The notes below the pieces were generated by a model. That model was given only the letters and a program-made list of their open reading frames with translations, did no database searches and had not been told where the DNA came from. Shown piece after piece: positions 1 to 18,659 of a DNA stretch of 25,814 nucleotides. Made by a program: the position numbers and the translations under genes. The stretch spans positions 1-25,814 of the forward strand of contig NW_026570629.1 of assembly GCF_019649055.1 (NCBI RefSeq). Direction: 5' to 3'. The stretch is from Paramacrobiotus metropolitanus. Its lineage: Eukaryota > Tardigrada > Eutardigrada > Parachela > Macrobiotidae. Position 1 is the stretch's first letter; each line of letters begins with the position of its first letter.

Positions 1-2
1 TT

Positions 3-410
3 ACGGAGCTGCAAGTCCACAATGCCATCGAACAGCACGTGGCCAAAGTACGGACCGCGACTGGAACCAATCAAGGGGATATTAAAGTCTATCCCGGTAC
101 CAGAGGCCGATTGGTGCTTCTTAAACAAAGGTACCGAACATGGTTCACTGGCATTCGACACCTCCTCGAAACCAGAACGGTCGACATAGTGAATGAGTTG
201 GGACGGGTCGGCGCAAGAACTGACGACCAGATCCGCCAAGCCAGGGAGGAATGCCAAACAATGATTAACCTTACCGAAGCCTTAGAAGAAGGGATTATCG
301 AATGGGAAGAGGAACAAATTGTACTCCATGCACAATTTGCGGAACATCAACTTTCCATCCCGCCGATACTTGAGATCCAAGCCCACGAACCTGGTGGCCA
401 ACCACAATAA
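3..410 (+). CDS. Gag-like charged helical protein, C-terminal part (partial)
   Basis: The frame is already open at the window edge, so only the C-terminal about 135 residues are visible. They are rich in Glu, Arg and Gln, with a long predicted helical stretch (around the residues VDIVNELGRVGARTDDQIRQ), and have no zinc knuckle. The frame overlaps the beginning of the pol frame by roughly 90 bases in a different phase (+1 relative to it), the usual gag-pol arrangement in LTR elements. I do not recognise the sequence as a named gag family; the assignment rests on position and composition only. A protease motif (D-T/S-G) is not visible. Confidence 0.4.
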   Translation, partial: TELQVHNAIEQHVAKVRTATGTNQGDIKVYPGTRGRLVLLKQRYRTWFTGIRHLLETRTVDIVNELGRVGARTDDQIRQAREECQTMINLTEALEEGIIEWEEEQIVLHAQFAEHQLSIPPILEIQAHEPGGQPQ

Positions 411-2079
411 AAAGGAGGTCATTATCCGGAAAGGAACCCCTATGGGTCGGATCGAGCCGTACGAACACATGACGGACGATCGGAGGGCCCGGGTCAGACT
501 TGCCCAATTAGGTGAGGAAGACTCGGAAACACTAGAAGAGCAGAAGAAGGCCATCAACTCCATTAAGCTCGGAGAGAACCTAACCGACGGGCAGCGACAA
601 GTTTTACGAGACATCGCATGGGAGTAGAGATTGGTCTTCCCGACCTCAAAGCGACCCTATGGTGACGTCAAGGGAGTCACTCACGTCATCGACATCCAAG
701 GTGCAAAGCCCATCAAGATGAACCCGACCAGAACAAGTTGGAAGGGCCGCGAATTCATCTCCAAGCACGTGCAGAAGATGTTGGACCAGGGCGTAATCGA
801 ACTTTCCGACGCAGCATGGAGCTTTCCCGTGGTCTTGGCAGCCAAAAAAAGCCCGGATGGCTCCGTCGGAACTCGGTTCTGCATCAACTATATTAAGCTG
901 AATGCAGTAACCAAGAAGAACAACTACCCTCTTCCTAACCCGGACGAACTACTAGACCGGTGCGCCGGGATGGAATTCTACGGCAAGGTGGACTGCCAGT
1001 TCGGTTTTTGGCAAATCCCAATGGACGAAGCCTCAAAGGACGTGACAACCTTCGTAACCCCGGAGGGCATGTACCGCTTTAACCGGATGCCGTTCGGAGT
1101 CTGCAACGGACCCGCAACTTTCCAGATGCATGTCGATAAAATCACGGCAAAAGCCCGCAAGAAAGGTGTTTTTGCCTACATTGACGACATCATCTTCTTC
1201 GGTCGGACTTTTGATGAATTCAAGGAAGCCTTCCGAGCAACCCTGGACTGCCTACTAGAGGCCGGGTTCACCATCAAGCCTTCAAAGTGTGAGGTCGGAA
1301 CGGATAAATTACCGTTCCTTGGCCATGTCCTCAGCAAGGCTGGAGTCCAGACCGACGACGAGAAAGTAGCGGCCATTGCTCAGCACCAACCCCCGAGAAC
1401 AGAACGCCAATTGCGGTCGTTCCTCGGGTTGGCCAACTATTACCGGAAATTCATCCGTAATTACGCACAGAGGACATCAAAGATGTACGAACTCCTTCGG
1501 AAAACGAATTCCATCCGGACAGACTGGACGGATGACCATACGGCGGAGTTCAACGGCATCAAGATAGCCTTAATCACAGCCCCGGTACTCGCTAGGTTCC
1601 ACCCGTTCAAGAAGACGGTAATCGAGTGCGATGCCAGTGGAGCCGGACATAGCGCGGTGTTGTCACAAGAAGACCACCCGGTAGCTTTTGCCAGCCGAGT
1701 ACTCCACGGAGCTGAAAAGAACTACGGTGTCACCGAACGGGAATGCCTAGCCGTAGTCTGGGCCTTGCAAAAGTTCAAACACTTCATTGATCATGGACCC
1801 TTCACTGTCCGAACGGACCACCGAGCCCTGCACAACTTGATGCGCTGTGACTCCAATAGACTTGGCATCAACCCCCGGCTAACACGGTGGGCATTGGCTC
1901 TGCAAGGCAAGGATATCACCATCGAGTACAAAACCGGAGTTTTCTGCGACAACGCGGATGCCCTGTCTCGATGGCCGTTGGAACGACCCGAAGATAACGA
2001 CCCTCACGAAGAACTCGCCCAAGTACCCAACTTTGAAGACTTCAAAGATGAGATCCAAATAAGGTCTCTAAGGGTGTAA
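319..2079 (+). CDS. Ty3/gypsy pol: reverse transcriptase and RNase H
   Basis: This enzyme copies element RNA into DNA and degrades the RNA strand. Before the RT proper, 319-624 encodes the usual Ty3 lead-in (NHNKKEVIIRKGTPMG, then LTDGQRQVL). An in-frame TAG at 625-627 interrupts it, and the frame is open again to 2079. Counting from 631, RT shows the catalytic Asp in KVDCQFGFWQIPM (121), FNRMPFGVCNGPATFQ (150-165) and YIDD (183-186). The connection follows with LRSFLGLANYYRKFI (261-275). RNase H keeps its acidic set: D334 in CDASG, E370 in TERECLAV, D396 in TDHRAL and D443 in NADALSR. The domains look functional apart from the TAG, which could be a mutation or a readthrough site. No integrase follows; the protein ends soon after the words VPNFEDF, which also occur in the second copy at about 22420. 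Confidence 0.92.
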
Positions 2080-2264
2080 CGGAAGGTTCAGAAGGAAAGG
2101 AGCCGAAGAAACCCGGACCAGACCTTGGAACCCGGAGGCTTAACGGATGAGGCCCGAGTTAGGTCTCTTCGAGCGGTCGGATGGAAGCAGACTAACAGAA
2201 TGCGTCGCCCAGTTCCGAAGAACACCCCGCTCCTCGGATGCAAAGTCATCTCCGACTGGAATGA
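2080..2264 (+). other. Linker between pol and protein A
   Basis: The pol frame reopens after the TAA at 2077 and stays open to 2460, overlapping protein A in another frame. The translation is Arg/Pro-rich with no recognisable motif. It may be a decayed or recoded C-terminal extension of pol or simply an untranslated linker. Confidence 0.3.
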
Positions 2265-3362
2265 GCTTGCAACCGCAGACGCCGGGACAGGACTCGAAGA
2301 AGGGTCAAACCTCAGATATCATCCTCGGACAGCGAGTCAGACACCGAATCAGGCCGGCAGGAACCCGACAAGAACCGGGGGCCGAAACTTAAGCCTGGTC
2401 AGAGTGTCGACGCTTGGGTCGATGAGATTCGTCGATGGGCCGATGGGAAGCCTCCAATAGAGGCACCCAAGGCTAAATCAAAGCTCTTGGACGTAAGCAC
2501 CCCGCTCCTTCGGATGATGATCGATAACTCTAATCGTAGAGAAGGTCGAGAAGAAGCGGCAAAGGCTGAACCGAAGGCCGAACCGGAGCCTCACGAGGTG
2601 GAAATGAGATCACCTTCACCAGAAATCCCATCAAAGGTTCAAGACAAGTCCGACCGGATGGATGCGGCGTCCACCGAACATCTAGCCGAGGGTTCCGACG
2701 AAGAACTCGATGCGGACACCAACCAGTCCGACTTACCAGCCCCAGATAACATCCGAGATAGGCTGCCGGACAGACAACCTTCGGAGCCCGAGCCTTCCTT
2801 CCCTAAAGCCCCTTTTAAGGAAGACGTCTGGCGCATGAGCCCCACTGCTAACATGGGAAGAAGAGACGTCTACCAGGAACTGGTCACGAAGCTGACGGAG
2901 ATGTACCAGGTGAAGAAGGAACACTTCCTAACTAAACAGTTCATGCCGAAGATCATCGCCTGGATACAGGAAGAAGCCTTGGCTCTCATACTTCATCGCT
3001 CACGGGACACCATGGGAGAGCTGATCTTCCCTAAACCACCGAATAAGCTCCGCAAGGAAGAGTCCATACCCGAAAGGATTGTCAGAGCTATCGGATACTA
3101 CCGTAACCCGAGAGGCTCAACCCGATTTCAGATCGCCCGGTTCCTCAACGTAATGTACACTTACGGGGACAAACCTAAAGGTGAAGCAGAGATTGAAAAG
3201 ATCCAGACGGAGATCGCCCCGATCCTACATCAAATGGTCAGGGATAGAGAGCTGCAGACCACCAACGCGCAGCGCGGACAGTACCTACGGTACACGGTTC
3301 CCGACTTTATCCCTGGCGAAACGAAAGGAACTGAAGCTCCGGATCTCTTACGTCCACAATAA
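2265..3362 (+). CDS. Unknown element protein A, acidic with winged-helix-like C-terminus
   Basis: Open for about 366 codons in one frame; the first ATG is at 2514, and the region before it also looks coding (Ser/Asp/Glu-rich, then a PGQSVDAWVDEIRRW segment). The N-terminal half is low-complexity and charged (repeated KAEPKAEPEP-type runs), probably disordered. The C-terminal half, about 2830-3310, is compact and mixed in composition, with DVYQELVTKLTEM, TRFQIARFLNVMYTYGD and QYLRYTVP, suggesting a helix-rich fold ending in a beta hairpin, like a winged helix. That is inference. It occupies the place where integrase normally lies in Ty3 elements, but I see no HHCC zinc finger and no DD35E pattern. 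A CAATA hairpin sits inside the frame at 2450. The frame ends in TAA at 3360. I do not recognise a family. Confidence 0.6.
   Translation, partial: ACNRRRRDRTRRRVKPQISSSDSESDTESGRQEPDKNRGPKLKPGQSVDAWVDEIRRWADGKPPIEAPKAKSKLLDVSTPLLRMMIDNSNRREGREEAAKAEPKAEPEPHEVEMRSPSPEIPSKVQDKSDRMDAASTEHLAEGSDEELDADTNQSDLPAPDNIRDRLPDRQPSEPEPSFPKAPFKEDVWRMSPTANMGRRDVYQELVTKLTEMYQVKKEHFLTKQFMPKIIAWIQEEALALILHRSRDTMGELIFPKPPNKLRKEESIPERIVRAIGYYRNPRGSTRFQIARFLNVMYTYGDKPKGEAEIEKIQTEIAPILHQMVRDRELQTTNAQRGQYLRYTVPDFIPGETKGTEAPDLLRPQ
2450..2464 (+). repeat. Outlying CAATA hairpin inside protein A
   Basis: A perfect 5-bp stem, GCCTC/GAGGC, closes a CAATA loop within the protein A reading frame. It is the only clear member upstream of the array. 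Another CCAATAG near 1853 has no stem and is not counted. Confidence 0.6.
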
Positions 3363-3411
3363 GAATAGGGGCCCTGCCCGAGTTGAACCTCAGACCAGGC
3401 CACCGGGATGA

Positions 3412-5361
3412 CGGCCGGCCCAGGCGAAAGTCTGGCTCGAACTTGCCGGGTCAACGGCAGCATCTGCGGGTAGCATATTCCCCCATGAAAGACCCAGAGC
3501 ACCCGGGGATTCGAAGGTTTACGAAGTGATGGAACCCTCGGCCCGGGATTCTGCTAACAAGGCATCGAAGCATGCAGTACGGGACAGAAGGGGCAAGTTC
3601 ATCCAGGACACACAGTCAGCTCCCCCGGCATCGCCACCCACCTCCCCGAAGGACTTCGCAGTCAGCTTCGCAGGCTGGAACCTCAAAAAGGGGCCAGTCT
3701 ACGACTAAGAAGCGAAAAAACAAGGGTCGGACCTCACGGAATGCGCACTCCTTGGAAGAGGAAGAAGACCCTCTTCGAAGGAAGATGACGCCGAGTCGGA
3801 ACAAGACTGCGACCGAACCGATAAATCGGACGGCGAAGACGACGATGATGATGAGGGGAAGCCGCCAACAGCGGCACCCCAGGACCCCAACCCGGAGGAG
3901 CCAGATAAACCCGAGGATCCTCCGGCGGAAAACCAAGATGACCCGATGGATGGGGAAGATGTCGGCCACGATGCCCCTTCCCACCAGCAAGACTCGGGTC
4001 CATCCAACCAGCAAGGTCTATGGGAACGGACACCCAGCCCACCGAAGAATCAACTGTTCATGGTGTGGCATGAGGATAAAGCGCAAGTGTTACCGCTGGA
4101 GATCCCATCGAAGCCCATAATACGGCTTCCACCGCGACCGAAGCAGCCGGCGATGATGCGAGCGGCTGAACCGAAGTTCAACCCTCGGATCGCCGACACT
4201 GATGAAGGTTGGGTGCACGTACACGCTGCACTCAAGGCGCTGTCTTGGTCCGGCCCACTGTACGCAACCCCGGACTTGGCTCACCAGCTGTTGAAGCATT
4301 GGCGCGTCGACAAGGACGGAAGCTGGTTCGACCTCAGCCTCGACAGGGTCAAGGAATACTGTCGGTTGGCTTATGAAACGGGTGCCATCCTCCGAGTCTA
4401 CACCCATACCGGGAGGCCATACTACGTCTTCCCGAGGGAGGAGCAAGACCCTGCACCCCGGACTTACCTTGGATGGCGCGATGCAGTCATCGCCTGCCTG
4501 CGAACGGATCGACACCCGGATGGATTAACTCGACGGGAGATCCTGAGCCTCCTAATCGGTCGGTTCGAGTTTATCCTGATGTCCGCTGGACCCCAATTGG
4601 AGGATGATCGGTATCGACCGATCCGACGGAAGGATAGCAACCTGTACCACCTTACAGATGAACTAAAGTATGTCCTGGGGCAGGCATTCCGGCAAAAAGC
4701 CGGAATGCCTGCCCTGCCCAGCGCCACTGACCCAGCCATGTTGGCCACATCATTGGATCGGCCCGACTCGTCTCAGCTAAGCCAACTCCCGATCTACCCG
4801 GATGGACGCGAGATCACGGATCATACGGAATGGGTTGCGCAGTTTGTACTGCCAGAGGCACAAGCAGCCATGGTAGTCACCGCAGCCCGAGCATCTCGGA
4901 ACATTCCCGAATACCTGGGAGCTGAGGAACCACAGGCTCAAGGGGATGCCCCGATGGCCTTCCTGACGGCTCAGCGACTGATCTTCGCGGCCCGGCTTTG
5001 CCACCATCATAGCAACTACACCTTGTACTGCGCGTACCGGAATAACAACGTTCCACCCAGACTGCGGACCACGATAGCCCAGCTCAGCACACCGATGCGG
5101 GACGCATTAGACGGATTGTGGCTTCGGGACTTCCTTATGACGGCGGAACGTTGGAAGAAGGAGTACCGTACTGGTATCCGGATGAGAAGAATACCGACGA
5201 GGCTTCGACCCTCTCGGAATGGTGCCGATGCATTCGCCACTTGCCACCTGGATTCACATCACCACCGATGCCAGAAGGTAAGTCATACTACCGGTATGAC
5301 ATGTGGCCTGGATCATAATCATCCAGCCGAAATCGCCGGCGTCGGGAAGCGCGCCGTGTGA
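3412..5361 (+). CDS. Unknown element protein B with repeated winged-helix-like modules
   Basis: A single frame is open from 3412 to 5361 except for one TAA at 3706-3708. The N-terminal third is disordered and acidic (a run of Asp codons near 3840, then Pro/Glu-rich sequence). From about 4180 it becomes a folded-looking protein. One module ends in GRPYYVFP (about 4250-4440). A second contains HPDGLTRREILSLLIGRF and ends in SNLYHLTDELKYVLG (about 4460-4680). A further helical segment with NYTLYCAYRNNN and IAQLSTPMRDALDGLWLRDF follows (about 4900-5140). The two modules could be tandem winged helices, a nucleic-acid-binding fold; this is inference from pattern. Near 5150 the plausible protein appears to shift into another frame (see next entry). 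No membrane segment, signal peptide or integrase motif is visible. I do not recognise the family. Confidence 0.6.
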
Positions 5362-5522
5362 AGGCTGGAAAACCAGGTCAGGAGACTCCGGATCCCCAAT
5401 CGACCTGCACCCAGGAGGCTGAATCCTCGAACCAGCCGGAGCAACGCGGCCCGGATAAGGACGACGACTCGGAAGGATCCCACTTCGGTGGTGGAGCCCC
5501 GGTCGTCGGAGACTTAGAATAA
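5118..5522 (+). CDS. C-terminal continuation of protein B in a second frame
   Basis: In the +2 frame relative to the preceding gene the translation looks more protein-like than the original frame: PYWYPDEKNTDEASTLSEW, then CIRHLPPGF. It is open to a TAA at 5316, then open again to 5522 with an Arg-rich block (SSRNRRRREARR) and a Gly/Asp-rich tail (SEGSHFGGGAPVVGDLE). Either a frameshift mutation lies near 5150, or the element uses recoding or splicing. A near-perfect splice donor, AAG|GTAAGT, lies inside it at 5277/5278. Confidence 0.45.
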
Positions 5523-5645
5523 GGAAGACCGGCAGCCAGACCCCAATAGGGTTAGGCTTACCGTTAAAACCGGTCAAAAGGACATGACGACGTCTCCAAT
5601 AGGGACGTTGACGAATTTTAACCGGATAAAACCTGAAGAACCCCA

Positions 5646-7355
5646 CAGATTGTGGAGTAACCAAGTTCTGCTATCCGTTCGGACCCTCAATAAGGGATAC
5701 GACGGTAGGACCCTTTGCAAAATCGTGTTAACCACATCTGCTACCTGTACGGACGAAAAATAAGGGATACGTCGGGTTAGCTTATCCCTGTACTAAACCC
5801 AAACGAACCCTATGGAATGGATTCCCTGATTGACTTGGCAAAAACGGGTACACCTGTCAGAATTTCAGTAGATGCACCGTACCGGTATGTCCACCGCGGT
5901 TTCCCCCGGATAGAATCCGTCAGAAGGCTCGGATCCCCCGGCACTAACCCTTTAACGGAGCAGATTGCACCAGATCGAACCACGTTCTGCCACCGGAAAC
6001 CTTTGAGCCACAGACTGTGTGCCCGACCATGATCTGCTACCATTATCGGCCCAGAATGGAGCCTTCAGCCTAAGTCCGCAGACCGCGGCATCCACTTCTG
6101 CTACCAAAGAAAGTCACAGAGTCAGCCACAGGCACGGCTGTCCGTGGGTATCTCAGTGAGGAAACTGCAGATCGCAGCCCCTAGCCACGATTCTGCTACT
6201 AGCTGGACCCTCAATAAGGGATACAGCAGTAGCCTTCCGCAGATCGCGAGTAACCACGATACTGCTACCTTAACCATCCAGCAGATTGCAGATTCCGACC
6301 CTGCCCAAGCTAGCCGGGTCAGAAAAACGATCATACTATGGAAGGAACAGACCGTTCAATACCTACCCGGACCCTTGAAGGCTCCGGAGTAGAGACCCAA
6401 TAGGCCTCCCCCTGTGGATGAAATTCTAAGTTCCGTCCCTTAGATGCGGGGAGCAAAATCATCTACATCTGGGGAACGGAAATACTAGAGGAACCTCGGA
6501 AGGAGGATCACGGCATTTCAGGGAGACATACCACCTTAAATGCCTCGGTCCAAAAAACAGAGTCCAAAGAGTGGACCCGTGAAACGCCGGATAGCAACCC
6601 TGTGAACCCAATAGGTTCCGGGGGAGAGCGCTTAAAAGGCTGCTGCAGACGTCTGAAACCCTATCCCCCGTGGACGACCCGAGCAGAATTGAGACCTCGT
6701 CGTCTGCGAGGGAAAACCCGAGCGAACCTTCGGCCCCGCCGGACCCGACTCGGCAAGCAAGTTGCTTAGACGGTTTAGCAAGACCACTAATTGACCAAAC
6801 CCAGGGTCACAGTGCTTTTGGAAGAGAAGCCTCCTAAAACACCGTGGTCAAACGACCCTTCGCACGAAGGGCGGGAAACCCGGGATGTCGAACGAGATAC
6901 GTTCAGCATTCCCTCCTTCTCATTACGACAGAAGAGCCCGAGACCCTCGGATCGATCCCTCGGGTGAACCCGATAAGTACGAGTTCAATCCAAGTGGACC
7001 GTACCGGACGTTCGCCCTGGCTTCCCCTGGATGAACCGGACAGAATGTTCCGGTCACCGGCGACAATGACAGGAGACAAACTGAGCCAATAAGCGAGGGT
7101 ACGCAACGTCACTGACGGAGCCTAGATACAGGACGGTTTAGTTGGCTTCAGCCGAATCAACGACTCCGCCACCGTCGACCGCTTCTGCAGAACCTGTGGA
7201 GGAAAAACCATAGAAATGTTTCGGACCGTGACACCAACCACGGATCCGTCATCGACTCAGGGAGCTGTCCCCAATAGGGACACCCCGACGTCAAAACCCC
7301 CGTACCGGGGGAGTGGAATAGCCACAGATTGCGTTCCGAACAACGAATCTGCTAC
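5646..7355 (+). repeat. CAGAtyG...CTGCTACC stem module, eight copies
   Basis: Copies lie at 5646-5676, 5717-5745, 5961-5995, 6011-6041, 6078-6105, 6167-6199, 6239-6269 and 7324-7355. Most start with CAGA, CAGAT or GCAGATCG and end with a pairing TCTG, AATCTG or CGATTCTGC, followed by CTACC or a close variant. The centre commonly contains AACCA or ACCA. In the last copy the arms CAGATT/AATCTG pair fully; in the copy at 6167, GCAGATCG pairs with CGATTCTGC around a changed base. This is a second hairpin family interleaved with the CAATA hairpins. Confidence 0.6.
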
Positions 7356-7370
7356 GTCAACGGGACGAAT

Positions 7371-8342
7371 CGCACGAAAGGCGGCTGGCTAGCGGTGAAC
7401 TGCGCAGACGCAATTAATCTCTCGTCAGCCACTCCGGCAGAAGGATCCCAACAAACTAGTCCCTAAGTCGGACTTTGGAACCCAACAGGCTCCCACCCAT
7501 TCAACATAGCCCGGACTTCTACGGCAAAGGAAGCCTTAAACCCTCTACCGATGAAGCCCAGGTGAAAAACCTGCTTTCATGGGATTCGTCGTACGAATAG
7601 CGGCTGGACAAGCACAACTGCGCACAACACAGTTGTCCATGTTCAGGCCCCTCCGGCAGAAGGATCCCGGTCGACAGGTTCCGTAACTCTGACCATAGAG
7701 CCCAATAGGCTCTTAACGCTTACCGGAATGCGGGTTATCGGAGCTAAGGAAGCAACCTCTCCTTAACCCCGTACCCGCAGGACTTACCCTCGGACCCTAC
7801 CAGCCTGGACCTTGTAAGCCGAGGAAGCAACAAGCCCTATACTGGCGAAGTCCAGGTGAAGGCCCAATCATCGGACCCTTCGTACGAAAGAAGGTTAACC
7901 AGGGGCTCCCAGCACAGTCTGCTGGGTCCTTCTGTTTAAACCCGACCGGCAGAAGGACCTCGGTGGAATAGCGGTTCCGTAAATTGAACCGTTAGAGCCC
8001 AATAGGCTCTGCCACCGAACGAATGTGGACCGCGTTGGCCTGGAAGCAGAATCTCCTGACCACTCGATCCACAGGACTTAATCCCCGGATCTCAAACCTA
8101 GAGGATTCCGCTAACATGGTGAAGAAGACGTCACTGCCGCCTTCTCCGCCATGTTTGCCAACACACCCATGGGTAACCCGGGACTTGGAGCATTAGCTAG
8201 CTGCATTTGAACCAGCGACGGGCCCAATAGGCCCTTGTGAAAGAAGCTGACTAACCCGGGATCTCTCGTACGAAAAGCGACGAACCATTGTGGAGGAGGA
8301 TAACCCGCTCCGCTCCAATGGCTCGTCCCTCCGGCAGAAGGA
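7371..8342 (+). repeat. CGTACGAAA...CCGGCAGAAGGA module, four copies
   Basis: Copies span 7371-7445, 7590-7664, 7881-7957 and 8267-8342. Each begins CGTACGAA (CGCACGAA in the first) and ends CCGGCAGAAGGA. Between these fixed words the sequence differs completely but folds: GGACAA with TTGTCC in the second, CCCAGCA with TGCTGGG in the third, GACGA with TCGTC and CCAT with ATGG in the fourth. One or two CAATA hairpins lie between consecutive copies, giving a 200-400 base repeating unit. Confidence 0.65.
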
Positions 8343-8540
8343 CTCTGGACTTCGGAAAGTGACCATCACGTGGATCGCGCCAACCACGATCTCTACCTCG
8401 ACGCTGCTTGCAGAGACCCAATAGGTCCCTAGCATAACTTGGCAGCCCGCGGTAAAATCCGATTACTACCTATACGGTACTAGAAGAGGCCCAATAGTCC
8501 TCCAGCCCGGAGAAACCCCCTTCGGAACGGATGGATCGGG

Positions 8541-9050
8541 ACATTAGGGCACATCGGTACCATTACTCCGATCCAGCGGATCGGACTCGTAGTATCGATG
8601 TCCGGCATGACCATTTCACCCGCGAACCGGACCATGGTCACCTCACGGAACGTGTTAGAACATTAGGGAACACGCGTATCCTTGCTCGACCTCGAAGAAG
8701 ATCGAGTAATGAGACGCGTGTCCGACAAAACTACATGCCCGATGGAAGCCATGGGAAGATTCTAATAACTTTGGCAAGTAGGCCCAATAGGTCTTTGCCA
8801 TGCGGATGAATTACCCTTAGTGTCCCGGAATGGATCGGACGTAGAGCGGCGCGCCAGCGGTTCGGTGTAGAAACCCCACAACGTGCTGCTTGCGGGCCAC
8901 TTCGACGAGAAGTCCCGGAGTAAGGAAACGGGAAGAGTCCAATAGGCTCTTTTCTGCCCTCCGGAAGGATGTACAAGGACATCAGGGTACGCGGATGAAC
9001 GCATGTTAGCGAGACCAGCTAATGCGCATTCATCCGCGTCCGACATGACT
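8541..9050 (+). repeat. ACATYAGGG long-stem module, three copies
   Basis: Copies lie at 8541-8612, 8660-8726 and 8979-9050. Each starts ACATTAGGG or ACATCAGGG, then a long stem with different sequence in each copy, then GTCCGRCATGAC or GTCCGAC. Stems: ACATCG with CGATGT plus TCCGATC with GGATCGGA; ACACGCGT with ACGCGTGT plus CTCGA with TCGAG; CGCGGATGAA with TTCATCCGCG. Fixed joints with fully replaced helices point to selection on shape. Confidence 0.65.
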
Positions 9051-9593
9051 GTACGCCCGGAAGGAGGCTATGGATACCAGCTGAACCTGCTGGATTACCC
9101 GGATAGGATCCAGAATGGATTTCCCGTGGAGAATCACAAGGTACGAACCGGCCAGAACGGACGTGTTCCCCGATGACCAAGACAGGATGATTCGATACTG
9201 GCATCTCGGGTGTTCCTGCCTAAGTAGAAGCACGGGATCAGCCGAAAGGCGGACCAGAATGGACCCCGTCTTTTCAACCTTAGAGTGTTTACCTCGCGGC
9301 TAAGACCCAATTAGGTCTAATATAGTCGCAGGAAAGCCTCTTCTTGCATGCTTTTTGCAAGTCGCCCGGTGAAGACCCCCGGCATCACCGACCATGGAGG
9401 TCGGATTCCCACCAGAGCATGTTGGGCCAGTTTCGGTCGGTTCCCAATAGGAACCCCCGAACCAGCAGGAGCCGAAATTGGACTCCCACAGCCCAGAGGC
9501 TCATCATCGAACCCGCAAGGCTCGGATCCTCCTCAGAAGCGTTACATCCCGGCACTAACCCTGTCCTCAGCACCCAATAGGTGCTAGAGGACC

Positions 9594-10131
9594 ACCTTAA
9601 GGGTTTCGCCCGGATGGATCCTCCATGATCCATCAGACCGATAACCATGGCTTGCTTTAGACTTAGAATCAGCAACCGAGGCTGCCATCGAACTTAGAAC
9701 CTGCGACTAGGGTTGCCCTCGGATTTGACCCCTTGGACCCTGGATTCGATGTCAGAGTCCGGCATCAACCCTTCCAATGCTGCCCAATAGGCGACGGCAG
9801 ACCATTACGGGGTTTTCGCCCAGAGAGAACCTTCAACGACTCTACCACAGCAGCCGAAGATTCCATTGGACTCTACCTCAGTAACCGAGGCTGCGATTGG
9901 ACTTAAACTTTCTGACCGAGGTTAGCCCTCGAGTATCGAGGCTACCCCGGATCAGACCCTTCAAAGCCTGACATTAACTAGTCCAAGTTGCCCAATAGGC
10001 GACGGGACGCGAAATTACAGTTTTTGTCCGGACGAAACCCTGGGAAATCGGTACTTTATCGGATGATTCCCCTGTAAGAAGACCCAATAGGTCTTATCCT
10101 TAACCTAGAGAGGATGCCTTACGGCTTTCGC
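9594..10131 (+). repeat. TTACGGGTTTTCGCCC and AACCGAGGCTG repeat words
   Basis: A word like CCTTAAGGGTTTCGCCC follows the CAATA hairpins at 9594, 9803 and, more divergently, 10013 and 10117. A longer repeat beginning CAGCAACCGAGGCTGC (9670-9722) recurs at 9879-9931 with about one change in five. These mark the last units of the array as copies of one another. Confidence 0.5.
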
Positions 10132-10580
10132 GTACTGCGACGGTGCCTCTCCATTCACCTTACTGTACGAACCCCGGCAACGGAGGTTCCATTCAACTTT
10201 AACAGTTGGATCCCCGGTCGGAATGTGAGTTTCATGCCCGTTTCTCACCCGGCTAAGGGAGATTCACGTCTAACCCGAAGTCATTCGGTCGGAAGTAAGT
10301 TTCGCGCCCGTTTCCTACCCGACCCTCGGTGAATCGAACCGGTACCATCGGGTATCTCGAGAACCGATGCCTCGAACCCGAATGGCCGGACATCCAGTGG
10401 ACTGGAGCCCCCGTGTGTGGATCAGCTCTAGTCAGAATCAGCACCCGGACCAAAGTCCCAGACCAAAGACTTTTAGTTTATTTTTTTACTCGGAATGATG
10501 TTCTCACTTTATTAGATCTGTAGCAGATCCCTTTTATTAACCTGCTCACCAGGAATTGTGATGCTTTTTTTTACTTTGAC

Positions 10581-10595
10581 GAGAGGGAGAGAAGA
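10581..10595 (+). promoter_or_regulatory. Polypurine tract
   Basis: GAGAGGGAGAGAAGA is an uninterrupted purine run directly before TTGATTAAC. In LTR retroelements such a tract primes plus-strand DNA synthesis just upstream of the 3' LTR. It fits the position but is short. Confidence 0.45.
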
Positions 10596-10778
10596 TTGAT
10601 TAACACTACTTTTTTACTTTTCGCCGTTACAGACCATCACCAACAGAAGCCTACACCGGTCCAACTACAACACCGACCGACCTCCGGATTTCTGCCGTTA
10701 GTTGTCCCGTCACCACGGGTCCGGAGGAGAGCGCGGTGCCGGAGAGACCTACACCGGACACCCCCGAGGCGATGTCAC

Positions 10779-10795
10779 CGACTCCAATAGGGTCG
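10779..10795 (+). repeat. Outlying CAATA hairpin downstream of the array
   Basis: The stem CGACTC/GGGTCG (one T-G pair) closes a CAATA loop. It lies beyond the candidate acceptor at 10632 and within the candidate 3' LTR or terminal exon. Confidence 0.6.
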
Positions 10796-11229
10796 TGTGC
10801 GGAGCGGGCACTGGGACGGTAGGAGGCCGGTCCTTCGCAGGGGCTCGGACTCCCGCCCAGAGGCATGTTGGGCCAGTCGCCATGGCAGCCTACGAGTATG
10901 GCAGCCAGCGACAGTCCCGCTTCCGGTGCACGGCTCATTAGTGCACAATATCGCACACACCCACGCCTGCACGCACTCGCTTAGTCGACGCCGAATCACT
11001 GGCCTCGACTCCGCCTTGCCACACCTACGGCTTGACGTCTCGGCCAATCAGCGTTCGCTATCGCTCGTGTTGGATCTGCCCAGTGCCGCATTAGGCTTCT
11101 CTATGTTACGGCTCGGTATGCCGTTTGTTCATGATTTAGTAGACATTCACACGCCTTGCTGTACACTAGCATATGCGATATCGAGCCTTCACGTGCTTTG
11201 TGTTTTGGTTCTTGACTTATTGATTCCTC

Positions 11230-11235
11230 AATAAA
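11230..11235 (+). promoter_or_regulatory. Poly(A) signal of the retroelement
   Basis: AATAAA is followed 25-45 bases later by a T/G-rich stretch (CCTTTGTTTGCC). It probably sets the 3' end of the element transcript near 11250. Confidence 0.5.
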
Positions 11236-11283
11236 GCCATTGTTCTCACACTCGTGAGCCTTTGTTTGCCAGCTGTCACAAAA

Positions 11284-11355
11284 CCTACTACACCTAAGAA
11301 ACCTAATCAAACCCAAGAAAACCTAAGAAAACCTAAAAAAACTAAAAAAAAAGCA
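11284..11355 (+). repeat. A-rich degenerate CCTAA repeat
   Basis: Five or six imperfect units of about 10 bases such as ACCTAAGAAA run into a poly(A)-like stretch. It directly follows the candidate LTR end. It could be a simple repeat, a retroposon tail or decayed telomere-like sequence; the sequence does not decide. Confidence 0.5.
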
Positions 11356-12331: not shown

Positions 12332-13719
12332 ACTTAAGGACGAGATCGGTTAAGTTTCGAGCACACTGACGTCGCACTGTTTTGGGGATTCTTTTGGGGA
12401 TGTGGTAGCGGTCTCCTTCAAGGAAAGAATGCAGGAGATGTTTTCCCAGGTTGTGCTGATGGCGACGACGGAGCTTGGTTTGACAGAGAACCCAAGGCTT
12501 CAGCTGGCTTGCGGGAGCAGGCGCGCACGTGGAGTTTAATCCAGCTCCCTGTGTAAACAGCTTTGGGCAGTGGTTGATCACGGACCATCGTATAGGCATA
12601 AAAAAAGACCAATCCGGAGAATCAGGTTGCCGCGAGCAGCTTCCCGTACCGTGGGACTTTCCCGTTCCGTGGTACGGTGCCACGTTAAGATTCCCCAAAG
12701 CCACCCACATGTTGACAGAAAGTAGCTTCTGCTAACGCGTCGGGAAATTCGACGCGAAAATCAAGATGTCGATCCCGAAAATCCATTGGTTAAAATGACT
12801 CAATCAAAATGACATCTCTCTCTTATAACATCCAATAACATCCAGGGATAGACTATGAAATCTATGCTCAGCCGGCAAATCAACAGTGGAAATGACGTGA
12901 TATTTCACGTCATTTCCACTGTTGAATAAATTCAATTCAACATATTTCACATTTACACGGGAAGGGATCGTTTGCAGGTACAATTTTCCTACCCTATTAA
13001 CCACTTTACTTTTTTCTTGATAAGAAATTAATTTTCACTTGCGAGAATGTGAAATCCAAATTGACCGCCACCCTGCAATTGTAGCTTCACCCAGAAGACC
13101 TGGCCATAGAATGCAGAAAAAGAATAGGGTATATTAATTCTATATTTCGCTCTCGTATTTACAGAAATAAATATCTTCTCTGTATAAATATTTTCTTTTT
13201 GTCGGCAATCTTGAACCTGCGGATGTTGTTTGGGAAGCGGTCTGGTACGACGAGGATTTTGACGTCACCAAGAGAGGTAATTGTGCGTCCTTTAACTCCT
13301 GCAATCCTTATATCGGAAATTTAATGTGAGCGCTGGTTTGTGTAGGCGCTAATCGGTTAGCGATGCTGGCTTGTGGGCAACATGCCCAATGATATACGTA
13401 CACTATAAAGATATACAGTACATGCCCACCGAACTGCGCGCTAAACCTTTATGCCAGATCTCTCTCCCTACACAAAGCGCCTACCGCGCATTTTATACTT
13501 CACAATACACAGCATGACAACACAGCATCTAGAACAATCTAGAGATCTAGAGACCTAAATCACAATAGACCCCAATGATTTTGGAAGCTTCCTAATGTTT
13601 AAAATTTGATGCTTTTAATTACTGTAAACCTGCGCTGGCAAATTCTTATGTGTATTGGCTGATGCTAAATAAAAATCTGGAGACTACACAGGGTCACTCG
13701 ATGCCGCCGGCACTTCACT
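12332..13719. other. Intergenic stretch without recognisable gene
   Basis: It holds near-palindromic GTACCGTGG-type words at 12648-12680, the perfect palindrome listed separately, and a loose inverted repeat (TTTGTGTAGG near 13340 against CCTACACAAA near 13467) that may be a decayed foldback element. No reading frame here looks coding. Confidence 0.5.
12880..12925. repeat. Perfect 21-bp inverted repeat with 4-base centre
   Basis: The arm TCAACAGTGGAAATGACGTGA (12880-12900) is followed by TATT and then its exact reverse complement (12905-12925). It would form a strong hairpin in DNA or RNA. No coding sequence surrounds it. Confidence 0.9.
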
Positions 13720-13773
13720 AGTGAGGCGGCGAAACGCGTGTAAGTAGAAGGTTTGGAGTCGGAAGTCGATCGA
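13720..13773 (+). repeat. Left terminal inverted repeat of the Harbinger element
   Basis: It matches the reverse complement of 18606-18659 at 53 of 54 positions; the single difference is A/T in the word GTAAGTAGAAGG. Confidence 0.92.
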
Positions 13774-13981
13774 AACCATGTTAGATCGACGTTGGTAAAA
13801 TCTGAGGATGCGCAGAAGTTTGGCGTGGTAAACTGAACATATACATTATACAGTACAGTAACGTTTCTGTGCACTGCCGAGCAGCACTGGTAATAGTGAC
13901 CGTAATACTTATCATAATAATCCTATAATTCATTATGTTTTTTATTGCGCAAATGTAGTATTTGCTTTATTAACTCGCAAA

Positions 13982-15620
13982 ATGAATACTTTTCTTGAGC
14001 ATATGTACTTGTTTGACGGAATTGATGACAACGAGTTTATTTTCCTTACGGATCAGCGAAAGCCGTTATGGAATGCAGATCGTAAGAAACAGTTTTGCTT
14101 GAGCGATTTTAATGACGTAGAATGCGAACTTAATTTTCGTTTTGGTCCTCTGGAGTTACCCCGACTTCAAGCTGCTCTATCTATTCCCGATGTTGTACGG
14201 TTAGAAAACGGCTGTATTGTTTCGGGTATTGAATGTTTATGCGTTCTTTTGAGACGGCTGGCCTTGAATGGCAGACTGCATGAAATGTCGATGATGTTTG
14301 GGAGACCCGGTAATGTCATCGGGAGAATCTTTTCGTGGTGCATTGATCACATTTATGACAATTTTGCCGATCGTTTATTGAAGAATTTGAATTCACCATA
14401 CCTCACAGAAGCATATTCAAGAATCTGTGTCGAAGAAATGTTGAGAAAGGCTCTCTGTTTGACAATTGTATTGGCTATTTGGACGGAAGACTGATCGAAG
14501 TATGTCGTCCTTCTGGACCTGATGAGATTCAGAGACAGCTGTATTCATACAAGAAATACCACGCGCTTAAGTACCAGGCATTGGCCGTGCCAAACGGGTT
14601 AATTTTTCAATTTGATGGACCTTGTGTCGGGAAACTCCACGACAGTACCGTATTTAAAAGGGAAAGCTTTCAACTTGTCGCGCGATTCACTGTCCCCACA
14701 TAGTATCATTAGATTCCTTGGAATTTATGGAATTTGTTATCCTGCAAAAGGTTTCTCCCAAGCAGTAAACTGAAGTTGCAAAACTTCGAAGAACCCAGCA
14801 AAGTAAAGATGGCTGATTGATGTGAGACGTCAGATTGCGATGCTCATCCACTCTACGCATAAGCTTACGTTGCATGACTGTAAGCGCGTCTGTTAAATCG
14901 TATCTGTGTTCTCCGCTCACCGTTACACCGCTTATTGCCAGCGAGATCTAGTGAGCTGTGAATTTTTGAGTGACTCATCACGCCTCCATACGTACGAAAC
15001 AGCTGTACAGACGCAATGCCGCATTGTTGGATTTCGACCATCGCAAGCTGACGTCAAGATTGCTTTCAGCCCTCTTTACAATGTAGGGTTCTTCGAAGTT
15101 TTGCAGCTTCAGTTTACTGCTTGGGAGAAACCTTTTGCAAGATAATAAATTCCATAAATTCCAGGGAATCTAATGATTCTATGTACGGCCAGTGAATCGC
15201 GCGACAAGTTGCAAGCTTTCCCTCGTTAGAAGAAGTCACCTTGCCGAGCGCCTGGAACATTTGAATAACAAATTCAGAATTCGCCCGGATAATCGCTTCA
15301 TAGTTTATGCTGATAGCGCTTACGCAAAAAGTTTGTATGTGATGCCTGTCTACAAAAATACGGCCGTGGGATCTTGGCGAGCACGAATTAATGACGAGAT
15401 GAAGCCACTTCGCATTTCAGTGGAATGGGGCTTTAAAAAAGTGAAGCAGTTGTTCCGCTTTATTACCGACCGAGATAACATGAAAATATTTTTAACTCAG
15501 CCCGGGAAATACGTGCCTGTTGCCGTAATCTTGACGAATGCTCATACTTGTTTGTATGGAAGCCAAACCACCGATTACTTTAACTGCGCGCCTCCTTCAT
15601 TGGAAGAATATTTCGGTTAA
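13982..15620 (+). pseudogene. Harbinger-type DDE transposase, frameshifted and interrupted
   Basis: The first ATG is at 13982. The N-terminal part contains the helix-turn-helix-like MFGRPGNVIGRIFSWCIDHIY that precedes the nuclease domain in this superfamily. Near 14430-14450 the frame must shift: the nuclease start, FDNCIGYLDGRLIEV, is in another frame. The catalytic triad is all present: Asp at 14482 (YLDG), Asp at 15312 (YADSAY) and Glu at 15423 (SVEWGF). HDSTVF at about 14640 matches the family's HDS motif. A 569-bp insert (14657-15225) separates the first and second Asp. The protein ends at 15620 (EEYFG). Without frameshift and insert it would be about 360 residues, normal for the family. 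Confidence 0.88.
14657..15225. mobile_element. Nested foldback/MITE-like element inside the transposase
   Basis: Arms of 140 bp (14657-14796 and 15086-15225) are imperfect inverted repeats, with outer ends AGGGAAAGCTT and inner ends GAAGAACCC, around a unique centre of about 290 bp. TTA precedes it (14654-14656) and follows it (15226-15228), a Harbinger-style TTA target duplication. Removing the element with one TTA brings HDSTVF and SHLAERLEHL into the same frame, strong support for these exact borders. No transposase is encoded inside. Confidence 0.8.
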
Positions 15621-15918
15621 AAAGGGACGAGAGGAAAATGGTAATTGTGACTATTTTCTACATTTAGATAGTTTTGACAGTGCGCTTTTTAGAATTTTTT
15701 TGTTTTTATATTTATTACCACTTATGTAGTCCGCATTATGAAAAGACCCTGACTGTAACGACGTGGGCCGGGCAGCCTTGCATTTCACATCTGGTTTTCC
15801 AAGGCCGACTCAGTTAATGATTTAATGGCTGATAACGGGCTGATCAATACAAGATTAGTCCAGCTAATTTTATTGATGATTTTTTCGGTACAGTATTGAG
15901 TTTTTCATTTTTTTACAG

Positions 15919-16627
15919 CCGAGTCCCAGCTGTGAAATCGCCTGACTGCGATATGCCTGTATTAAAACGCGCTCTGCAAGCGCCTCCTTTATCCAATGCG
16001 TTGGAAATTTATGCGGATTTGTATCGCACACACAAAACGTTCCGGAGTTTTAATGAACCGGCTTCTATGGGAACCGAAATGAAAGGATCCCCTACTACAC
16101 GCTTACACGCGGCTCTAACCCAAGAATCTCCGATAAGCCTGTCACGCTGATGCCCACACACTTGCTATCCAATTTTGGAGGCTATTATGGACTGGGCCTG
16201 GCGACAGCGCGGAATCCCGGTACGATGCCGGCAGCCGTGGCGGCTGTGGCCGGATCGGCTTTTAACAAAGCATCACCGTTCTCCTTCGTCTCTCCGGCTG
16301 CGTTCTACCCGGCCCATGCGGCAGCCGATATTCGCCTATTGCATCACCAAATTGGCAATATTAGTCTGTATCCACAGGCGTTTGACATGTCGCTGGCCTA
16401 TCTAGTTCCCTAGCCCAACAGGTATGTTTTGTCGGATGGCGCCTTCCCGAAGTTCTTATTTGCCCTGACCGGCACACTACCGCCGCAAGTCAGCTCATCT
16501 GGTTAATTTGTCTCCCATGTACCAAATGCCTCCGTCACCGGCCAGTGCCTCTTCGTTTAAACGTCCTAATGGAAACAAATGTCGCCGACGCCGACGAGCC
16601 AACAGGTTTGAGGAGACATACTGGTGA
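15919..16627 (+). pseudogene. Unrecognised gene remnant carried inside the Harbinger element
   Basis: A good splice acceptor (CATTTTTTTACAG) ends at 15918. A frame then runs to 16149 (VLKRALQAPPLSNALEIYA). A second, more convincing frame covers about 16056-16410, with PYYTLTRGSNPRISD, LLSNFGGYYGLGLATA, an Ala-rich stretch and HQIGNISLYPQAFDMSLAYL. A third ends at 16627 with a basic cluster, KCRRRRRANRF. Frame changes and stops (TAG at 16411) separate them; AACAG|GTATGT at 16421/16422 could be a donor. The composition (Ala, Pro, His, aromatic residues, a terminal basic patch) resembles a regulatory protein, but I do not recognise the family. It matches neither Harbinger gene, so host gene capture is a possible origin. 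Confidence 0.4.
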
Positions 16628-17172
16628 CCGGAGCGCGGTTAGTCGTTGGTTGTTTTACTAGTACGGAAATTTTGGTTAGATAAGTAGTAGTAGGTAGTGG
16701 GATGTTAAGAGTTTAATTATTGTTTAGGGTGGTTCTGTGTGCGTGTGCTTGACGGGTATATTCGAATAGTATTAATCTCGCGGCAAGATTTCCAGTAGTT
16801 GTGCTGTTAGTCTTGATTTCACTGCGACGATATAATTAAAAGAATTTATTCTATCATGCGCGACACTTACTGACGTAAGATACTGTAGTATTCTAGTAAT
16901 TATTATTGTGAGTATCACACCGATTCATACGCGCTAAACCATGGTTCCAGTACCGTTTACATGCCGACATTGTTCGATCAAAAAATGCCAAAAGCAATGC
17001 TGCTCTCTTTAGTTAAAAATTTTACTTAAGATGGAAAAAAGTTAGCTGGTAAAAACTTAAAATAAAATGAAAACAAAAAGCTGAAACCAGCCGCTATCGC
17101 TTATTAAGTAAGTACCGTACTTCAGAAACGTAATACAGTAACTGGTATATAAACCGGCAGTAATTAACTGCA
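16628..17172. other. Non-coding spacer between the convergent units
   Basis: AT-rich with no recognisable coding frame. It contains several TACAGTA/TACTGTA words. It presumably holds the 3' end of the Myb-like transcript. Confidence 0.4.
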
Positions 17173-18429
17173 CTAGTTTTTATTAAGCAAAAATGTCAGA
17201 GTTTCTCGCAGGAGACCAGTTTGCTCATCCCTAGAAGCCGCATCCCGCTCGTACTTTTTTTTCTCGAAGTCACGATCTTTGTCTTGTTTCTCTCTTTGAA
17301 ATTGCCGATCCTTTTCCCTTTCTTCGCGCTGGAACTCTCTTTCTTCTCGTCGATCCCGCAGCTCCTCTCTCCGCAATTCTGCATCCGATCGAAATTTCTC
17401 CTGGAGTAAGTTGTCCCGATTTTTTCTTGCGGATCCCGATCCTGCGAATTTCCAAGGCGAATGAACTACACGCTTCATCCATTTTTTGACAGGAGTCCCG
17501 CTGGCCGTGTACAGTTCTGGGTGTTCTTCTTCATGGCGTCGGCGGGCTTCATCTATAAAATGGGTCAGCTGGTACTGATAGCAGGAGATGTGACTAAATT
17601 AGACAATTACCACAATACACAATGATAGTCACCCTTTACAGACAATCAGATTCACCTCGACAAATCTATAAAATCGGCTTTTAGTGCCTTTTACTTAATA
17701 GAAGTGATTTAAAAATCAAAAGCGAACGAATGATTAACCGTCTTCATCCGAGTCCCAGTTTGCATCATCGTTATCGCTTACAGTGGCTGATTTCTTCGAC
17801 AGTTTCTTCTTGGCGTCGTCTTCCAGTCTTTCTATCAACTCCACATTGTGAGACTCTTTTTCTTTCTGAGCATCTGACATGTTTTTGCCTTCTTCTTCAG
17901 CCGCTGAGACACTTTCAAGTAGCAACTGATATTCGGTCGGCTCAGGCTGTTGTTCATCACCAGTCGGATCAATACTAGGAGTCTTTTTAGCTCTGTATTC
18001 CACCAACAAAGTTCGCACTCGGTCACGGCCGTACTTGCTGGTTCTGACTTTGTTGGGTTTAGATATTTTGTCCGCAACTTTCTGCCACATACTTTCTCTC
18101 TTTCGAATGGGGGAGGAGAAAGGCTTGATGTCCACCATGGCCTGCAGAAGCTCGAAATCAGACTCCTGCATAATGGCCGATTTACGGCGCTTCGATGCTT
18201 TTTCTGAGTCTGCGGGTGCGCTATCTAAATTGAAATTTGCAAAAAAATCATAAAAATTGAGAATATGCAGCATAGCGGAGCGAAGAACTTGCCCGAAACT
18301 GCAGATAAAGGCGAAACTGGCTGACTTTCTGCGGGATTCATGGTGCTCTAAGTGCTCTTGCAGAGGACAGCAGTCATAACACGCCAAGTCAGCAACAGCA
18401 ATTCTGGCGCCGTTCAAAATTATAAACAT
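17173..18429 (-). CDS. Myb/SANT-like protein of the Harbinger element, two exons
   Basis: In this superfamily a second protein with a Myb/SANT-like trihelix binds DNA and works with the transposase. The upstream exon (18429 to 17739) encodes a SANT-like domain from about SDFELLQAMVDIKPF through RESMWQKVADKI to GRDRVRTLLVEYR, then an acidic tail. An intron of 186 bp, 17738-17553, with GT...TTTTATAG borders, removes a stop at 17734. Phase is kept: the joined codons read DSDED-DEARRRHEEEHPEL. The downstream exon ends in a long Arg/Glu/Lys coiled-coil-like helix and LLRETLTFLLNKN at 17173. The N-terminus is uncertain: the first 60-70 residues from 18429 are hydrophobic and unlike the family, and an acceptor (TTTCAATTTAG) just before DSAPADSEK suggests another 5' exon. 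Confidence 0.8.
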
Positions 18430-18605
18430 AAAGACAAATAAATTCAGTTAACATAACGAGTGTTCTTCGTTGAATAACAAAAACAGTATCAGGCACCCAA
18501 AGGAATAAAATACGGGATTTTACTAACGGCAAACTACAATTTAAAATCAAAAATAAAGTATTAACTCACACCATGTGCGTTTTGTAAAGTCGGACTTTAT
18601 TCGCC

Positions 18606-18659
18606 TCGATCGACTTCCGACTCCAAACCTTCAACTTACACGCGTTTCGCCGCCTCACT
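18606..18659 (-). repeat. Right terminal inverted repeat of the Harbinger element
   Basis: This is the partner of 13720-13773. Immediately outside is ACT, the same triplet as at the left end. Confidence 0.92.

Follow-up and report, generated by a model that had tools for sequence, protein, structure and literature searches.

A fixed-loop hairpin with covarying stems is repeated along a non-coding tract downstream of a Ty3/gypsy-type reverse transcriptase gene

Dispersed packaging stem-loops, in which a common recognition motif is set within variable sequence, are described for MS2, STNV-1 and the hepatitis B pregenome (excerpt of PMC6281560), and for STNV-1 the proposed dispersed packaging hairpins are reported to lack discernible significance in vivo (excerpt of PMC6475782). 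A different use of reiterated motifs is exemplified by CsrB, a single RNA that carries 22 GGA motifs, many of them in hairpin loops (excerpt of PMC7652899). Among the Ty3/gypsy retroelements, plant Tat/Ogre elements possess, downstream of pol, a non-coding region that is variable and contains repeats (excerpt of PMC7004042, in the main text of which the word hairpin does not occur). For yeast Ty3, the cis-acting packaging sequences lack precise definition (excerpt of PMC11381356), and a review of Ty1 and Ty3 states both that the packaging sequences and structures lack clear definition and that a contribution is likely from several RNA sites scattered beyond the main packaging regions (excerpt of PMC4974528). 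The means by which LTR retroelements select their own RNA are poorly defined, and a natural array of approximately 20 variants of one hairpin bears on this question.

Such an array is found in a 25,814-nucleotide stretch of Paramacrobiotus metropolitanus DNA (hereinafter, the window), within a non-coding tract of about 5,000 bases (approximately 5.5-10.5 kb) located downstream of a Ty3/gypsy-type reverse transcriptase (RT)-RNase H gene. Hairpins with a 6-bp stem and a CAATA loop occur there on the coding strand, separated by a median of about 210 bases, and the stems of the approximately 20 hairpins differ between copies in matched pairs while the loop sequence is constant. The principal features of the element are the following:

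631..2079, plus strand: Ty3/gypsy-type open reading frame (ORF) for RT and RNase H (PF00078, 1.5e-25; PF17917, 2.2e-31; PF17919)
2487..3362, plus strand: ORF without a Pfam match at E<=0.1
3946..5361, plus strand: ORF without a Pfam match, codon use near or slightly like that of the RT ORF
10582..10596, plus strand: putative polypurine tract GAGAGGGAGAGAAGA, read directly, preceding a putative 3' LTR that reaches approximately 11280

Membership in Ty3/gypsy rests on the RT-RNase H ORF, for which 3420 proteins scored E<=1e-20 among 8000 scored; the best 120 listed are 37-43% identical to it, and the YIDD-type aspartates, which we take to be the catalytic residues of the RT, are invariant in the alignment. 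Pfam searches of four ORFs between positions 39 and 5361 detected neither an integrase domain nor a gag or capsid domain, and none of 7999 candidates scored against the 3946..5361 ORF reached E<=0.01. No LTR pair or second LTR was found within the window, which starts inside the element. A coding origin of the tract was rejected on codon scores and stops, by which the tract is non-coding. Positions 1-10450 are T-poor, unlike the DNA after 11290, and this shared composition, together with the hairpins in the gap after the RT ORF and in the putative LTR, indicates that the element and the hairpins belong together. The same window contains a decayed gypsy relative (21817-22464, 48.9% amino acid identity), in which, truncated as it is, the covariance model identified no CAATA hairpin. 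Bacterial or viral origin was also considered and rejected: blastn against phages yielded no match, and viral contigs contained no relative of the RT. As to the host, a galactosyltransferase search recovered, apart from the window, seven proteins, four of source 'lgn' with 35-58% identity and three from chordates with 30-32%. Nor was a known RNA family recognised, Rfam giving no match at E<=1 across the window and, for positions 5400-11300, two matches with E of 1.2 and 5.4, far below gathering scores.

The consensus hairpin is RRRRCC-CAATA-GGYYYY, and in many copies a small bulge separates it from an outer helix below. The 21 hairpins that the earlier note, made from the sequence alone, had placed in 5539-10095 were recovered as 19 CAATA-loop hairpins and two loop variants, and addition of the hairpins at 2449-2465 and 10779-10795 brings the total to 23. 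In the list below, each CAATA hairpin is a match of the covariance model and, unless a value is given, has a pair probability of at least 0.5 in context:

2449..2465, plus strand: CAATA hairpin lying after the RT ORF and before the next listed one (pair probability 0.99)
5538..5554, plus strand: CAATA hairpin
5591..5607, plus strand: CAATA hairpin
5682..5698, plus strand: CAATA hairpin, U-A closed
6206..6222, plus strand: CAATA hairpin duplicating that at 5682, likewise U-A closed
6392..6408, plus strand: CAATA hairpin, its stem interrupted by one A-C mismatch and weak in context (0.04)
6603..6619, plus strand: CAATA hairpin
7266..7282, plus strand: CAATA hairpin
7477..7493, plus strand: CAACA-loop variant, predicted unformed in context (0.00)
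7697..7713, plus strand: CAATA hairpin
7994..8010, plus strand: CAATA hairpin
8219..8235, plus strand: CAATA hairpin
8413..8429, plus strand: CAATA hairpin
8486..8502, plus strand: CAATA hairpin containing a mismatch, weak in context (0.27)
8779..8795, plus strand: CAATA hairpin
8934..8950, plus strand: CAATA hairpin
9302..9319, plus strand: six-base-loop variant CAATTA, present in the minimum free energy (MFE) fold of its 65-base surroundings
9439..9455, plus strand: CAATA hairpin
9569..9585, plus strand: CAATA hairpin within module V copy 1
9779..9795, plus strand: CAATA hairpin within module V copy 2, weak (0.08)
9987..10003, plus strand: CAATA hairpin within module V copy 3
10079..10095, plus strand: CAATA hairpin
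10779..10795, plus strand: CAATA hairpin within the putative 3' LTR, weak (0.33)

Between 2400 and 10960 there are 25 CAATA sites. Our alignment comprised 21 of them, leaving out 3357, 6357, 7087 and 10946, where no stem is present, and it likewise omitted the two loop variants. Counts of outer helices and of folding in context refer to 22 hairpins, that is, the 21 aligned sites and 7482, without 9308. In a 305-nt context, the mean pair probability was at least 0.5 for 17 of these 22 stems and lower at 6398, 7482, 8492, 9785 and 10785. Outer helices around the CAATA hairpins exceed the permutation expectation (p=1.5e-4) and are missing from 5 of the 22.

Chance pairing does not account for the array. 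When all 23 CAATA in 5500-10960 were included, misses and all, 114 of the 138 positions in shells 1-6 were paired, compared to 77.8 expected from 100,000 arm permutations (sd 4.4, largest 99), and the excess held for shells 3-6 alone (74 of 92 versus 40.9). Shells 7-8 were paired at 17 of 46 positions, against 17.0 after permutation, and shells 7-10 are at chance, so that the stem stops at six pairs. Furthermore, 91% of the stem positions paired in register and at most 53% when the arms were slid. The pattern GCCCAATAGGC, allowing up to two mismatches, matched the window 20 times (17 on the plus strand of the tract, 2 on the minus strand and 1 at 16413), compared with a mean of 5.15 and a maximum of 14 in 100 sequence shuffles; equal frequency in shuffled sequence, one of the outcomes that would have told against the signal, is thereby excluded. 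In a census blind to loop sequence, CAATA accounted for 13 of 41 hairpins with five-base loops and for 9 of the 19 with 6-bp stems, and no other five-base loop occurred twice among the 41.

The covariation is strong among the copies within this one window, from which all of it is drawn: changes on both sides were observed at all six stem pairs, in 39 cells against 12.4 in the shuffled control. The covariance model that had been called for scored its 21 training sites at 19.3-25.5 bits, the CAACA variant at 15.4 bits, the CAATTA variant at 13.0 bits and a minus-strand site at 9468 at 14.2 bits, with no further match above 10.9 bits in the rest of the window; across 97 unrelated loci totalling 813,699 bases, scanned with default filters, a single match reached 19.3 bits.

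The confinement of the hairpins to one strand, likewise claimed at the outset, is borne out across the whole window: at least five standard pairs flank 16 of the 43 CAATA on the plus strand (14 in 5500-10960, and those at 2455 and 16356), and not one of the 18 on the minus strand has even four, which excludes equal frequency in both orientations. The site at 16356 lies outside the element, is rich in G-U pairs and is absent from the covariance-model matches. The further contention that G-U pairs identify the plus strand as the RNA fared less well. Among the 19 distinct stems of the 21 aligned hairpins, 8 G-U against 3 A-C (one-sided p=0.025) modestly favour the plus strand, whereas the longer hairpins of the tract, with 19 G-U and 28 A-C at threshold 6, show no G-U excess and leave a strand proof from them unsupported.

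The CAATA hairpins, on which the earlier note focused, are accompanied in the same tract by other repeated modules that it left out, several of them multi-helix and compensating:

7355..7465, plus strand: module X copy 1, a variable hairpin enclosed by CGNACGAA ... CCGGCAGAAGGA
7572..7680, plus strand: module X copy 2, same arrangement
7864..7975, plus strand: module X copy 3, same arrangement
8253..8360, plus strand: module X copy 4, same arrangement
8531..8625, plus strand: module Y copy 1
8650..8750, plus strand: module Y copy 2
8968..9070, plus strand: module Y copy 3
9536..9612, plus strand: module V copy 1, with CAATA hairpin 9569..9585 inside
9748..9823, plus strand: module V copy 2, with CAATA hairpin 9779..9795 inside
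9960..10035, plus strand: module V copy 3, with CAATA hairpin 9987..10003 inside
5640..6300, plus strand: module Z, AGAYY-loop hairpins followed by TCTGC, from a permutation test

Module Y consists of an outer stem, a conserved internal loop and a long hairpin, and 18 of its 28 pairs (17 by another count) changed on both sides among the three copies. In module V, the CAATA hairpin is enclosed by three further helices, and every one of these includes one or more pairs with both sides changed (7 of 17 pairs overall). For module Z, 24 of 32 stem positions were paired versus 17.5 after permutation at eight sites picked for a downstream TCTG (six in 5640..6300, 6692 and 7326) out of the 31 AGAYY in the tract; RNAalifold yielded three pairs only, which is weak support. 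A pseudoknot joining the AGAYY loop to TCTGC is conceivable. The module X pattern had no matches in viral contigs and 17 in genome contigs, near the approximately 15 estimated by chance, and the at least 80 viral stretches that matched the module Y pattern are taken as chance because it includes 16 fixed bases. Tandem Repeats Finder (TRF) detected a single array in 5500-10450 (31 bases, 2.1 copies) and one across the right end (13 bases, 1.9 copies, 10444-10468), and longer duplicates are 70-76% alike. In 200-base windows, the tract has lower folding z-scores than the remaining sequence, and its values are alike on both strands (means -1.81 and -1.96); the excess folding is therefore not counted as evidence for RNA.

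Collectively, the shuffles, the strand bias and the covariation within the window leave, as the best reading, a reiterated RNA signal under selection for both shape and loop, with the G-U argument as its weak part. The 5.5-10.5 kb tract would form a large RNA domain, non-coding and situated in the 3' part of the element, presumably transcribed as one RNA and enlarged through duplication of structured modules whose copies then diverged while selection maintained their shape. Each CAATA hairpin would be a candidate binding site for one and the same protein, the approximately 20 copies allowing multivalent binding of the transcript. That protein would most likely be the element's own Gag/nucleocapsid, which would selectively gather or package the genomic RNA, and the next choice would be a host protein providing export or stability. 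To an ornate domain with some 20 protein-binding hairpins, most likely read by Gag/nucleocapsid for packaging, we give roughly even credence.

Recognition by a host protein, the array acting multivalently in export, stability or localisation of the transcript or as a sponge instead of as a packaging signal, appears unlikely, if worth serious thought. The same anatomy, from the arm permutation to the both-sided changes and the loop census, fits this alternative, as does the location of the hairpins in a 3' non-coding tract. Such regions are a usual place for stability and localisation signals. CsrB, in which about 20 hairpin loop motifs titrate a protein, offers a parallel (excerpt of PMC7652899); against it stands the thin observation, limited to the window, that no strong covariance-model match falls outside the element.

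We consider it improbable that the hairpins are structural caps or tertiary contacts (loop-receptor or loop-loop) of one folded RNA with no protein reader. The nesting of the module V hairpin inside three further compensating helices, the excess of outer helices and the other compensating modules agree with such a role. However, the hairpin recurs amid dissimilar modules and is also found beyond the tract, at 2449 and at 10779, so a portable binding site fits better than a fixed architectural part.

It is very improbable that the paired changes reflect mutation and not selection, one arm being rewritten from the other by template switching. This mechanism has been described, including repair that keeps loop and structure, and its intrastrand form is tied to an excess of G-C over C-G (excerpt of PMC8794818), as seen in the 19 distinct stems (28 versus 11); the lack of a G-U excess in the long hairpins also agrees. 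The expected excess of U-A over A-U (excerpt of PMC8794818) is reversed here (A-U 17, U-A 6), and nothing in the mechanism calls for a single orientation. Template switching alone leaves the fixed loop over differing stems and the 6-bp stop unexplained. It may still have supplied paired changes, which selection could then have retained.

Action as single-stranded DNA or cruciform sites in reverse transcription or integration is scarcely credible: both strands do fold, as the z-scores show, but the G-U bias of the CAATA stems favours the plus strand as RNA, and no known DNA-hairpin enzyme was recognised in the four element ORFs scanned.

The favoured reading of a protein-binding RNA signal has a broader form, tentative and in our judgement rather doubtful, in which a Ty3/gypsy-type lineage of a poorly sampled host carries an ornate non-coding RNA domain of approximately 5 kb with several structurally conserved module families and about 20 protein-binding hairpins. 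If true, the domain would represent a new class among large structured RNAs, one organising the ribonucleoprotein particle of an element, and, to our knowledge, the first repeated, covarying assembly code in an LTR retroelement. The array is an unusually clean instance of copies within a single molecule changing in a compensatory manner, and lets one ask which protein reads the hairpin and whether copy number sets packaging.

Among the described systems, yeast Ty3 shares with this element the Ty3 class, and its polypurine tract is resembled by the putative one here (excerpt of PMC11381356). It has an integrase after RT, a domain that the four ORFs scanned here lack, and the excerpted account mentions no repeated fixed-loop hairpin array (PMC11381356). 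The likeness to the 3' UTR of Tat/Ogre elements is in position only, a non-coding region downstream of pol; unlike their head-to-tail tandem monomers, the repeats here are diverged, dispersed and structurally conserved. With CsrB/CsrC the locus has in common about 20 repeats of one motif, many of them in hairpin loops, on a single RNA, whereas those bacterial small RNAs differ in size and host and display GGA, not CAATA. Unlike the viral packaging signals, the putative signals here place CAATA on a 6-bp stem and are crowded into a non-coding Ty3/gypsy-type tract; like the dispersed packaging hairpins, they combine one loop motif with variable stems in several stem-loops.

The tract of approximately 5.5-10.5 kb located 3' of the reverse transcriptase (RT) ORF carries the CAATA hairpins (consensus RRRRCC-CAATA-GGYYYY), which are one layer within a larger design that also includes further repeated multi-helix units, modules X, Y and V.

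Features of the element, the Ty3/gypsy-type retroelement carrying the tract (+ strand coordinates)
631-2079, Ty3/gypsy-type RT-RNase H ORF, at the left of the window
2487-3362, first of two ORFs without known domains
3946-5361, second ORF without known domains
mostly 5640-6300, recurrent AGAYY-loop hairpin followed by TCTGC
7355-8360, module X, four copies, a weaker case than Y and V
8531-9070, module Y, three copies, internal loop and flanking sequence blocks kept, outer stem and long hairpin rewritten
9536-10035, module V, three copies, three helices around a CAATA hairpin
10582-10596, polypurine run, 5' of a possible 3' LTR with its end near 11280

As the earlier note proposed, the CAATA loop persists while the stems are replaced in a compensatory manner: in alignment A1 of these hairpins (21 rows, 19 distinct), all six stem pairs change on both sides, in 39 cells versus 12.4 in shuffles, with only one such cell in each of the two loop-adjoining pairs. 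All of this covariation is among copies inside one sequence. Pairing involves 91.2% of the A1 cells, and sliding the partners gives 19-53%. For all 23 CAATA sites in 5500-10960, stemless ones included, stem positions (shells, counted outward from the loop) 1-6 are paired in 114 of 138 cases, compared with 77.8 (sd 4.4, largest 99) when 3' arms are permuted among sites; none of 100,000 permutations reached 114. Without the loop-adjoining CC/GG, shells 3-6 are paired at 74/92 positions versus 40.9 permuted, and a purine is the 5' base in 45 of their 62 Watson-Crick pairs (19 distinct stems; p = 5e-4). Shells 7-8 (17/46 versus 17.0) and 9-10 (18/46 versus 14.9) are at chance level, and the stem thus consists of 6 bp and then ends. 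Behind a small bulge, an outer helix is commoner than in permuted flanks (score 153.6 versus 92.7, sd 16.3; p = 1.5e-4), being absent at 5 of the 22 sites.

The loop also emerged from a census of 5500-10450 that was blind to it: CAATA accounts for 13 of the 41 hairpins with a five-base loop and five pairs, every other loop occurring at most once, and for 9 of the 19 six-pair hairpins. The 9-mer CCAATAGGC (at most one mismatch) occurs 19 times, once without a stem (7086), whereas across 20 shuffles no 9-mer exceeded 11 occurrences. A covariance model gives its 21 member sites 19.3-25.5 bits and picks up two loop variants at 15.4 and 13.0 bits, in agreement with the anticipated number of at least 23 hairpins; it gives 14.2 bits for site 9468 on the - strand and, with default filters, one match of at least 19.3 bits in 813,699 unrelated bases. 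The array is confined to one strand, also as claimed: at least five standard flanking pairs surround 16 of the 43 CAATA on the + strand (one, 16356, outside the element), and at least four surround 0 of 18 on the - strand. The five standard pairs at 16356 are G-U rich, and the covariance model does not list this site. The further claim that G-U pairs mark the + strand as the RNA finds modest support in the CAATA stems (8 G-U versus 3 A-C; p = 0.025 against composition), which favours the + strand, also the coding strand. It does not extend to longer hairpins found without strand bias, whose 19 G-U and 28 A-C match composition and therefore provide no strand evidence. Folding energies of windows are similar on both strands. 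Predicted folding within 305 bases of surrounding sequence gives 17 of 22 stems a mean probability of at least 0.5 across the first five pairs, with 6398, 7482, 8492, 9785 and 10785 below 0.5. From 5544 to the putative LTR, neighbours are spaced 53 to 700 bases apart (median near 210).

Both-sided change affects 18 of 28 pairs in module Y (94% of cells paired; no more than 2 such pairs after sliding), 7 of 17 in V (slides at most 3; the number of further pair types matched by 99/500 shuffles) and 5 of 18 in X, all within one helix (17/500 shuffles reach 5); these structures were derived from and counted on the same alignments, and the shuffle tests, which draw on only three or four copies of each module, are no more than indicative. 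In the AGAYY hairpins, 24 of 32 stem positions at eight chosen sites are paired versus 17.5 permuted (p = 2.5e-4); RNAalifold lends them little support. CAATA-type hairpins are spanned by four duplicate pairs with 70-76% identity, and the tract therefore grew partly by duplication. The linear motifs TCGGACCCT and TCTGCTACC (at most one mismatch) occur 10 and 9 times in 5500-10450, a recurrence that is only suggestive, since the commonest 9-mer of shuffled sequence occurs up to 11 times. GCATGTTGGGC is found at 9417-9427 in the tract and again at 10863-10873 in the putative LTR.

Judged by its stops, and by its codon use when compared with that of the RT ORF, the stretch of approximately 5 kb after the ORFs looks non-coding. 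Composition is T-poor across 1-10450 (T 17-20%) versus 28% past 11290, and the polypurine run is similar to that of yeast Ty3 as given in PMC11381356. No second LTR was detected within the 25,814-base window, and we infer that the window holds the 3' portion of a single element. Downstream of RNase H (2080-5361) there are two ORFs without known domains in place of an integrase, and the four ORFs scanned contain neither an integrase domain nor gag. The second of these ORFs has a very acidic stretch 5' of it (read by eye) and contains an inverted repeat (4678-4714; 16-bp arms, five-base loop). An in-frame TAG (628-630), compatible with either read-through or decay, directly precedes the RT ORF, and the stretch upstream is open in the same frame. 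A degenerate AAACCTAAG-type tandem repeat (11280-11350) adjoins the putative LTR end. The best protein relatives of the RT ORF among the matches listed are 37-43% identical, and viral_contigs searches yielded no RT relatives.

Elsewhere in the window, a second, decayed gypsy-type fragment (21784-23022; 48.9% amino acid identity to the RT ORF over 219 positions, at 21817-22464) contains no CAATA hairpins. A DDE_Tnp_4 transposase piece (15192-15620) lies near a 158-base inverted repeat (14659-14816/15066-15223), and a DDE_Tnp_4-type element of Harbinger-like kind (13719-18660) may be bounded by the 55-base inverted repeats found at 13719 and 18606. The four nearest relatives found for a Galactosyl_T gene (19498-20550) show 35-58% identity and all come from a single source, which points to a eukaryotic host from a thinly sampled group.

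Some 20 copies in one RNA, in varied surroundings, of a portable hairpin whose loop and stem length are fixed while its stem sequence is free are the pattern expected of selection by a protein that recognises the loop and the shape. Because the element encodes RT, we favour its own Gag or nucleocapsid as the probable reader, with packaging as the effect. The main rival is a host export or stability factor that would read the same hairpins; a role in RNA architecture alone comes next. Template switching may have produced the paired changes, and the excess of G-C over C-G (28 to 11) is one of two asymmetries tied to it in PMC8794818, but the other is reversed here (A-U over U-A, 17 to 6), and the common loop and the 6-bp limit are left unexplained.

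Among the titles and abstracts listed from PubMed Central literature under open licence (subscription journals being mostly outside), none describes an LTR retrotransposon with an array of covarying hairpins that share a fixed loop. Closest by position are the 3' UTRs of Tat/Ogre elements, which consist of tandem repeats (PMC7004042) and from which the tract differs; the analogues of the CAATA array are CsrB (PMC7652899) and the hairpins that serve packaging in some RNA viruses (PMC6281560).
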